DNA from: a virus
Length of the DNA: 46,031 nt
Virus record (IMG/VR): IMGVR_UViG_3300032061_000003
Span: 1 to 46,031 of that record
Direction: 5' to 3' (one strand)
Numbering within the stretch: the stretch's first letter is position 1; each line of letters opens with the position of its first letter. Shown piece by piece: positions 4,328 through 37,297 of the stretch. Both the position numbers and the translations under genes were made by a program. Under the pieces are notes generated by a model. The model did no database searches. It had not been told where the DNA came from and saw nothing but the letters and a program-made list of their open reading frames with translations.

Positions 4328-5495
4328 AGGAACTATATATCAAACAAAAAAAGGATACGCTGCACAATATAATTATAATGGTAAAAGATATACTATTTCA
4401 GGCAAAGTAAAAAATGACGTTAGAAAAAAACTAAATGAAGCTTTGAATCAAATAGAAAAAGGAACATTTGTTGAATTCGGTAAAATTACTGTTGGTGTTT
4501 GGTGTCGCGAATGGCTGAAGCAAAAGAAGCCATTTATAAGAGAACAAGGTACATACAATACCTATAAATGGCGTACGGATAGAATTATCGAAGGTTTAGG
4601 AGAAGACACTTTGCTTAAAAAAATAAGACCTTTAGATGTTCAAAATTTTATAGGATGGTTAATGGAACAACCCAAAAAACGAGGAGAAGGAACTATCAAA
4701 AAAACTACCGTTAGAGAAGTATATACAACCTTAAATTCAATTTTAAGGTCTGCGTTAATTAATGATTTAATCCCAAAACAAATATCTGGGAAAGGTTTTA
4801 TTACGATACCAAAATCAGATACCGGAAAAGTTGGTACATTATCCATAGAAGAACTTAACCAGCTTTTGGATACCATTAAAAAGCCTATTATATTAACTTC
4901 AAAATACAATTCTGAATATGTAAGAAAATTGATGTATATAGCTTTAGTGATCGAAACAGCTACCGGAATGAGAATTGGAGAATTGTTAGGGTTAAGATGG
5001 AATGATTATGATTCAAAGAAACGTACTTTTAAATTATCTCAACAGTTAACTAACGCAGGAACAATAAGCAGCGATTTGAAAAGCGCTTCATCTTATCGCG
5101 AATTAGTAATAGATGAACAAATTGCAAAAATTATTGAAAGTTATAAAGTTCATCAAAATGAATCAAAATTATTTTTGGGAGAACTGTATAAAAAACATAA
5201 TTTAATTTTTTGCAAGCAGGACGGAGAACGGCTTTGGCAAAGAACTTTCTATGGATGGTATAAAAAGCTTTTATTGGCCGCTGGAATTAAAAATATTAAC
5301 TTTCACGCCCTACGGCACACATTTGTTACTCTCGGATTAGAAGAAGGCATAATAAGTCACAAAACTCTTCAAGAAATGACCGGACATTCTTCGATAAAAA
5401 CCTTCTATGACATCTATAGTCATGTAACTCCTAAAATGCAGAGTGAAGCTGCCGGAGTTATCGCCAAAAGAATTAATTTAAACGATAAGCAGTAA
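4302..5495 (+). CDS. int: Tyrosine site-specific integrase (Tn916/ICE-type)
   Basis: The start is ATG 4302 after AAAAAGGAG; the longer frame from 4257 lies inside the repressor. Product 397 aa. Residues 1-50 are an AP2-like arm-binding domain (KGEGTIYQTKKGYAAQYNYN...GKRYTISGK). Residues 65-170 are the SAM-like core-binding domain. The catalytic domain shows R in TGMRIGELLGLRWNDY, HALRHTF, and GHSSIKTFYDIYSHV with the nucleophile Tyr. All catalytic residues appear intact. It integrates and, with an excisionase, excises the phage. The gene is read with the repressor. Its 3' end carries the first copy of a 20-bp repeat thought to be part of attP. Confidence 0.95.
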   Translation: MARRRSKGEGTIYQTKKGYAAQYNYNGKRYTISGKVKNDVRKKLNEALNQIEKGTFVEFGKITVGVWCREWLKQKKPFIREQGTYNTYKWRTDRIIEGLGEDTLLKKIRPLDVQNFIGWLMEQPKKRGEGTIKKTTVREVYTTLNSILRSALINDLIPKQISGKGFITIPKSDTGKVGTLSIEELNQLLDTIKKPIILTSKYNSEYVRKLMYIALVIETATGMRIGELLGLRWNDYDSKKRTFKLSQQLTNAGTISSDLKSASSYRELVIDEQIAKIIESYKVHQNESKLFLGELYKKHNLIFCKQDGERLWQRTFYGWYKKLLLAAGIKNINFHALRHTFVTLGLEEGIISHKTLQEMTGHSSIKTFYDIYSHVTPKMQSEAAGVIAKRINLNDKQ

Positions 5496-35332: not shown

Positions 35333-35361
35333 TTGACATTATACCCATGCGGGTTTATAAT
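35333..35361 (+). promoter_or_regulatory. Consensus promoter with embedded palindrome (plus-strand operon)
   Basis: TTGACA (35333-35338), 17-base spacer, TATAAT (35356-35361): a perfect match. The spacer carries ACCC-ATGC-GGGT, and CATTATA/TATAATG flank it as an outer inverted pair, so the promoter is itself an operator-like palindrome. The bases TATAATGTAAAT match those of the promoter at 9704-9732. It drives the small plus-strand operon to 37261. Confidence 0.85.
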
Positions 35362-35400: not shown

Positions 35401-35550
35401 GTGAAAATAATCAATGTTTTCGGGCATAAAATTTGCGTTAATGATAATTTCAAAGCGCAGGTAGATGGTAAAGAAACAAAAGTGTTTTTTGATTTAAAGG
35501 AAATGGGATTTTATATAAACTTATATGGAGGAAGGGTATATCTAAATTAA
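35401..35550 (+). CDS. 49-aa protein with GTG start
   Basis: The GTG at 35401 is eight bases after AAAGGGG; the frame extends upstream through the promoter, which excludes earlier starts. Product VKIINVFGHKICVNDNFKAQ, then VDGKETKVFFDLKEMGFYIN and GGRVYLN. A small beta-strand protein. First gene after the consensus promoter; function unknown. Confidence 0.6.
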   Translation: MKIINVFGHKICVNDNFKAQVDGKETKVFFDLKEMGFYINLYGGRVYLN

Positions 35551-35612
35551 CCCAGTCGGCGTAAGAATCGTGCAGGGCCGCGAGGCCCATCCTTGAGAAG
35601 GGGACTAGAAAG
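35551..35612 (+). ncRNA. Structured GC-rich leader element A
   Basis: GC-rich against the AT-rich surroundings. A perfect GGGCC-GCGA-GGCCC tetraloop hairpin (35576-35589) is followed by CCUU...AAGG and an AGUC/GACU closing pair (35554 and 35602). Its 3' end, AGAAGGGGACTAGAAA, matches AGAAGGGGACTGGAAA of the second element at 35901-35916. Both lie between stop and start of plus-operon genes. Structured regulatory RNA is inferred; no known riboswitch was recognised. Confidence 0.4.
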
Positions 35613-35624
35613 GAAGTGTTAGAC

Positions 35625-35828
35625 GTGGAATTTGTTATCGGCAAAATATACCGATATAACCAAATCAATTTCGTGACAGGAAAATTAATGCCAGCCGAAT
35701 GTACAATCACCAAAAGGACCAACAAAACTGTAACATTAAAAAGCGGTTCCGTCCGGAAGATATTCCGCGAAAATAATGTTGAGTATATTTTCCCAAATGG
35801 CCCTGAGTCAAAACTTTTTGCGGACTAA
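35625..35828 (+). CDS. Hypothetical 67-aa protein with GTG start
   Basis: GTG at 35625 lies 10 bases after AAAGGA; a GTG at 35616 is in frame but too close to it. VEFVIGKIYRYNQINFVTGK, then ECTITKRTNKTVTLKSGSVR and NNVEYIFPNGPESK. It looks like a small beta-barrel (SH3- or KOW-like) phage protein. Lies between the two structured RNA elements. Function unknown. Confidence 0.6.
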   Translation: MEFVIGKIYRYNQINFVTGKLMPAECTITKRTNKTVTLKSGSVRKIFRENNVEYIFPNGPESKLFAD

Positions 35829-35830
35829 TC

Positions 35831-35889
35831 CCCGCCCGACGATGGCCTGCTGGGTACAGGCCGAAACTCTCCCACAGGAGAGTCGCGGG
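35831..35889 (+). ncRNA. Candidate type I hammerhead ribozyme
   Basis: Order of elements: stem I 5' CCCGC (35831-35835); core CCGACGAU (35836-35843); stem II GGCCUG/CAGGCC (35844-35849, 35857-35862) with a seven-base loop; GAAA (35863-35866); stem III CUCUCC-CACA-GGAGAG (35867-35882); UC (35883-35884); stem I 3' GCGGG (35885-35889). This is the hammerhead topology with C3, G5, A6, G8, A9, G12, A13, A14, A15.1-U16.1 and C17 in place. Cleavage would follow C35884. Departures are U4 to C and an extra U before stem II. It begins two bases after the upstream stop and is in the sense orientation of the operon. Activity is unproven. Confidence 0.55.
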
Positions 35890-35938
35890 AACCCGCCCTA
35901 AGAAGGGGACTGGAAATAGAAAGGAGCGTATCAAACAA

Positions 35939-36232
35939 ATGAAAACGATTATAATTAGCAAGGGCAAAACAAATGACGCAGAAAGCATTTATTATCTTAG
36001 CCTTAATCCCAAATATTACTATCTTTCAAATGAAGTCTTAATGGAAGAACCGATTTCTCCAGACGTTAAAATTATTTTAAAGTCAGATAGCGGATGGTAT
36101 CCGGGAACCATTAATGAAATGAACGCAAGTAATTACAATTTTGTTATTGATTCTCTTTTGGCTCAAGAAATTATTGACAAGTGTAAAAGCCTTGATGGTT
36201 GCCCCGGTTACTGTCGCGGAAAAAATTATTAA
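35939..36232 (+). CDS. Hypothetical protein (97 aa)
   Basis: ATG 35939 is 12 bases after AAGGAG, downstream of the hammerhead-like element. MKTIIISKGKTNDAESIYYL, then LSNEVLMEEPISPDVKIILK and a cysteine-containing end (CKSLDGCPGYCRGKNY). Beta-rich N-terminal half. No family recognised. Confidence 0.65.
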   Translation: MKTIIISKGKTNDAESIYYLSLNPKYYYLSNEVLMEEPISPDVKIILKSDSGWYPGTINEMNASNYNFVIDSLLAQEIIDKCKSLDGCPGYCRGKNY

Positions 36233-37266: not shown

Positions 37267-37297
37267 TCCCCCCGGCCTAAACCGGGGGTCTTTTTTT
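37267..37297 (+). terminator. Strong intrinsic terminator of the plus operon
   Basis: CCCCCGG (37269-37275), six-base loop, CCGGGGG (37282-37288), then TCTTTTTTT. It separates the plus operon from the convergent end of the long early operon. Confidence 0.95.

Follow-up and report, generated by a model that had tools for sequence, protein, structure and literature searches.

A hammerhead-like RNA block between two small genes of a phage operon, at a site that also holds the remnant of a conserved RNA element

A sequence belongs to the hammerhead ribozymes, by a published criterion, only if it contains the core C3 U4 G5 A6 N7 G8 A9 G12 A13 A14 A15.1 U16.1 H17, and any change in that core disqualifies it (PMC3088659). 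A change of U4 to C (U4C) occurs in a natural, active viroid hammerhead; by itself it considerably lowers activity in vitro, and several natural core variants have proved slow or inactive when tested (PMC3088659). The plus-strand hammerhead of CChMVd carries an extra residue at the same place as the extra residue of the sequence described below, and replacing that A with U raises its rate 3-4 fold (PMC3705267). Each of these departures is known singly, and we found no precedent for U4C and an extra residue combined. What phages gain from self-cleaving ribozymes has yet to be settled (PMC6155905).

We analyzed a 46,031-nucleotide stretch of viral DNA (positions 1 to 46,031 of IMG/VR record IMGVR_UViG_3300032061_000003; referred to below as the window) that contains, on its plus strand, a type I hammerhead-like block at 35831-35889. 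The block begins two bases past the TAA stop codon (35826-35828) of one small gene, and is followed on its 3' side by a Shine-Dalgarno sequence and then by an ATG at 35939. Stem I is formed by CCCGC (35831-35835) and GCGGG (35885-35889). The core segment at 35836-35843 comprises the letters CCGACGA (35836-35842), in which U4 is replaced by C, and an extra U (U10) at 35843. Stem II pairs GGCCUG (35844-35849) with CAGGCC (35857-35862), and is followed by GAA (35863-35865) and by stem III, in which ACUCUCC (35866-35872) and GGAGAGU (35877-35883) form seven pairs that include A15.1-U16.1. C17, the last base of a canonical GUC triplet, is at 35884, and cleavage is predicted between 35884 and 35885. 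In hammerhead numbering, C3, G5, A6, G8, A9, G12, A13, A14, the A15.1-U16.1 pair and C17 are present; in all, the block has 12 of 13 core positions and 18 base pairs in the type I layout, with two departures (U4C and a single added U that separates A9 from G10.1). A re-reading of the sequence reproduced the letters and coordinates of the earlier note, along with its description of a near-complete core with two departures and of GC-rich stems in an AT-rich genome, all three of which are intact.

The three-way hammerhead fold is the predicted minimum free energy structure of 35829-35891 and forms part of that of 35829-35916, with stem I pair probabilities of ~0.7-0.84 (ViennaRNA). This prediction and our type I descriptor agree on the order of three stems around the core, and with the earlier description of a type I topology in sense orientation after a stop codon. 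By folding energy the region is ordinary (z = -1.1 and -1.7), and we do not count these scores as evidence. A pseudoknot contact between loop II and the region of stem I, in which GGGU in the loop could pair with ACCC past the stem, does not rise above chance, with 27% of shuffles doing equally well.

Rfam covariance models did not accept the block as a hammerhead. RF00163 and RF00008 had no match anywhere in the window, and RF02276 scored 13.6 bits on the block against a cut-off of 37, in a different and less plausible register that reuses the block's GAAA, stem III and GUC. Where a type II hammerhead has a CUGANGA core after the stem I hairpin, the RF02276 alignment places CUAAGAAG. At gathering and at relaxed thresholds, no ribozyme was accepted anywhere in the window. 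Because the core is changed at position 4, where the block has C, it is not a member by the unchanged-core criterion (PMC3088659), and the extra U35843 between A9 and G10.1 likewise departs from a core free of insertions. We do not claim formal hammerhead membership for the block.

The genes on either side of the block are both small and on the plus strand: the upstream open reading frame (35616-35828) encodes 70 amino acids, or 67 if its start is at 35625, and the downstream one (35939-36232) encodes 97; neither has a PHROGs or Pfam match. Sequence signals suggest that they probably belong to a single operon, extending from a sigma-70-type promoter-like site upstream of the small genes (TTGACA-17-TATAAT, 35333-35361, plus strand, 12 of 12 consensus positions) to a terminator-like hairpin after the operon's last gene (37269-37288, plus strand). 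The promoter-like site sits inside an inverted repeat, possibly an operator. Two gaps in the operon are long, one carrying the element that we term R1 and the other the hammerhead-like block; the remaining gaps measure 11-30 nt. GC-rich hairpins directly past a stop codon would also suit an attenuator or intrinsic terminator that separates the transcription of the two genes, but no U-run follows the hairpins, and the terminator scan is negative at this site, yet finds the hairpin at 37269-37288. We have rejected this reading of the block as highly improbable.

With the type I descriptor (18 pairs, at most 2 edits in the core), the site at 35831-35889 was the sole match on either strand of the window, and ~1.1 Mb of other fetched DNA gave no match of more than 15 pairs except re-fetched copies of the block. 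Whole-window dinucleotide shuffles, scanned on both strands, reached at least 18 pairs in 7 of 3,867 cases (~0.002 per window), a rate that is optimistic because the descriptor thresholds were set after the candidate was seen; none of 499,617 local shuffles exceeded 14 pairs. The match is not expected by chance in one window. A comparable match would arise by chance if one read many hundreds of windows and, since this window is one of many, the shuffle evidence alone is insufficient to call the block a ribozyme.

The earlier note had overlooked R1, both in the gap preceding that of the block and as a remnant at the block's 3' end. R1 is a conserved four-helix RNA, located at 35553-35607 (plus strand) in the preceding intercistronic gap and identified by a covariance model and pair-preserving changes. 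The model, which was built from seven sequences that include the window copy, scores 77.1 bits at 35549-35618. Pattern scans and the covariance model found full-length R1 in nine records (the window, L001, L026, L047, L074, L078, L090, L114 and L125), among which L114 is a bacterial genome with a match of 73.6 bits; weak model matches in other genomes (19-26 bits) and the matches in L127 and L132, all set in unlike sequence, are excluded from this count. The element is placed where one small gene ends, ahead of the ribosome-binding site of the next. In its hand-checked fold, P1, P3 and P4 contain pair-preserving changes (for example, UAGUC/GACUA versus UUGUC/GACAA in P1, and GGGGC/GCCCC versus GGGCC/GGCCC and GGGGA/UCCUC in P3) and P2 is nearly invariant, across nine sequences, which are few.

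None of 4227 Rfam families matched R1 (35545-35630) at E values up to 10, a BLAST search of phages and plasmids with the R1 consensus returned no R1, and a genome scan with its 3' kernel gave a single, unrelated match. R1 may resemble the hatchet ribozyme (RF02678) in a stretch like GGCGUAAG..AUCGUGC, a likeness that we treated as a lead. The RF02678 model had no match at the R1 sites of eight records; a hatchet pattern likewise found nothing, and a scan of 398 genomes yielded no hatchet to compare with R1, the controls being equally silent. The terminase large subunit of the window phage (32806-34275, minus strand) is ~51% identical to that of Salmonella phage epsilon15; R1 nevertheless also turns up in a genome taken from the Lentilactobacillus phylum.

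The R1 remnant (AGUC / GCGG-GAAC-CCGC / CCU-AAGA-AGG / GACU; 35881-35911, plus strand) is without hairpin P2 and overlaps the 3' strand of the hammerhead, such that U16.1, C17 and the 3' strand of stem I are also the 5' part of the remnant. The R1 model matches 35876-35924 with 20.3 bits (E 6.5e-4 over 378 kb). Over 35829-35916, the predicted energy of the hammerhead fold is -29.3 kcal/mol versus -25.8 kcal/mol for the R1-remnant fold. The earlier note had proposed that RNA beginning with GCGGGAACCCGC can refold in competition with stem I; that hairpin would have four pairs and a GAAC loop rather than five pairs, and the refold overlaps the remnant. The note also suggested that cleavage may be coupled to translation of the downstream gene, which we treat as a conjecture.

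In our interpretation, a site of R1 in an operon punctuated by ribozymes was probably taken over by a variant of the hammerhead, which is the block seen today. A serious rival is that the R1 letters contribute to a chance resemblance: two stable hairpins beside an R1 remnant would then merely look like a hammerhead, and would act as a structured intercistronic element such as a leader, a host-nuclease processing site or a protein-binding site. In that case the remnant accounts for U16.1, C17 and GCGGG, a shuffle rate of ~0.002 per window would yield some such matches over many windows, and the lack of Rfam acceptance and the unremarkable folding energy are as expected. The same explanation nevertheless requires that CGAAAC, a seven-pair stem III, CCGACGA, a six-pair stem II and CCCGC coincide, which they never did in local shuffles, and it leaves aside the ribozymes (one a canonical hammerhead) in the equivalent gaps of relatives. 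We consider a structured element without a hammerhead to be unlikely.

The nearest relative, L001, encodes a downstream gene product that is 92% identical. In its equivalent gap the hammerhead block is absent and the sequence that follows, CCCTAAGAAGGGGACTGGAAA, is kept; the upstream gene has been replaced too. The CCCTAAGAAGGGGACTGGAAA kernel is also the final part of another element, located in the preceding gap of both the window phage and L001. The small genes at window positions 35616-35828 and L001 positions 4581-4952 are unrelated to each other and have been exchanged between two elements of the R1 type. R1 kernels may act as joints at which gene cassettes recombine. When the whole region, each flanking gene, and the hammerhead together with the R1 remnant were used to look for homologues, only L001 was returned, via the downstream gene. 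Covarying stems in related phages had been suggested as a check on the ribozyme; no second, homologous copy of the block was found that could display covariation.

The absence of the block from the gap of L001 is in keeping with a decayed or very slow hammerhead, in which U4C and the extra U leave little activity and the block now serves as a structured mRNA spacer. Two core departures point the same way, given the lowered in vitro activity of U4C alone and the slow or inactive behavior of several core variants (PMC3088659). Drift, however, would not be expected to leave every stem intact and GC-rich in an AT-rich genome, and a U at the extra position is favourable in the viroid hammerhead (PMC3705267). 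Decay is, in our estimation, a serious rival as well, though an unlikely one.

Gaps equivalent to that of the block hold ribozymes in related phages. Among R1-carrying records, twister-P5 scores above the Rfam cut-off in G001, G003 (two copies), G004, G006, G007 (which has an R1 remnant only) and L125, and pistol does so in L125. These ribozymes lie between small phage genes, with twister-P5 at L094 14654-14706, L100 5273-5322 and 7292-7343, L103 6039-6091, L104 6956-7011, L110 6064-6131 and L125 1602-1670, and pistol at L125 2626-2690. Twister-like sequences under the cut-off were matched by pattern in G002 and G004, and twister-P5-like sequences under the cut-off are found directly past a stop codon in L097 (from 4412) and L103 (from 7123); 757 kb of control DNA contained no match to the twister-like pattern. 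At G005:40640-40696 (L109 1043-1094), directly past a stop codon and before AGGAGG, there is a type III hammerhead whose core is canonical throughout; it scores 25.7 bits with RF00008 (E 9.1e-5), under the gathering cut-off. In total, of the eight other records with full-length R1, which share some genes and are not fully independent, seven have a ribozyme at a distance of up to ~2 kb and on the strand of R1 (in G002, by pattern only). The int-alpA RNA (RF02996) also occurs in two R1-carrying phages (L100 435-498; L112 2831-2896).

This company of ribozymes in the gaps of relatives is, by comparison across the records, the strongest new evidence for the block: since relatives place twister-P5, pistol and a type III hammerhead in like gaps, the intercistronic context favours a ribozyme here as well. 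The hammerhead interpretation put forward in the earlier note is upheld in part, through its layout and intercistronic context, and weakened by the Rfam rejection, the two core departures, the lack of a homologous copy and the absence of the block from the gap of L001. Somewhat more confidently than not, we interpret the block as a naturally occurring variant of the type I hammerhead, one that cuts the phage's polycistronic mRNA after C35884 and so between the two small genes.

The hammerhead appears to occupy a place where a complete R1 formerly stood. A cut after C35884 would part the upstream from the downstream message; the former would then end ~56 nt past its stop codon and carry stems II and III close to that 3' end, and the latter would start with 5'-OH-GCGGGAACCCGC ahead of its ribosome-binding site, possibly with a short 5' hairpin. 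The analysis shows the sequence, the predicted fold, the R1 remnant and the ribozymes of relatives, whereas cleavage, its rate and any effect on message stability or translation are inferred. If the reading is correct, the block represents a natural hammerhead variant that combines two core departures. The presence of different ribozymes in consecutive small-gene gaps suggests that cutting between cistrons matters, whichever fold performs it. R1 is conserved, absent from Rfam and accompanied by ribozymes, which makes it a tangible candidate for an RNA with a new function, catalytic or regulatory. A further proposal, possible but doubtful, is that R1 represents a class of self-cleaving ribozyme not described before, which can stand in for twister-P5, pistol and hammerhead in the gaps of these operons and of which the hammerhead variant replaced one copy here.

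Among known systems, the block shares with the type I hammerhead (RF00163; for examples from prokaryotes and phages see PMC3088659 and PMC6155905) the order stem I-core-stem II-GAA-stem III-GUC-stem I, 12 of 13 core positions and a phage intergenic location; it differs in the change of U4 to C, the extra U, the lack of a convincing contact between loops I and II, and the lack of model acceptance. The CChMVd plus-strand hammerhead (PMC3705267) likewise has one extra nucleotide between A9 and G10.1, but there the extra base is A (with U a faster mutant) in a viroid RNA, whereas the block has U, in addition to U4C. The type III hammerhead of the related phage G005 (40640-40696), ~1.7 kb downstream of an R1, is also situated between the stop codon and the ribosome-binding site of small genes; unlike the block, it follows the type III order with every core position canonical, and the two have no sequence homology. 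Finally, related phages have twister-P5 (RF02684) and pistol (RF02679) ribozymes in like gaps of R1-carrying operons, with different folds.
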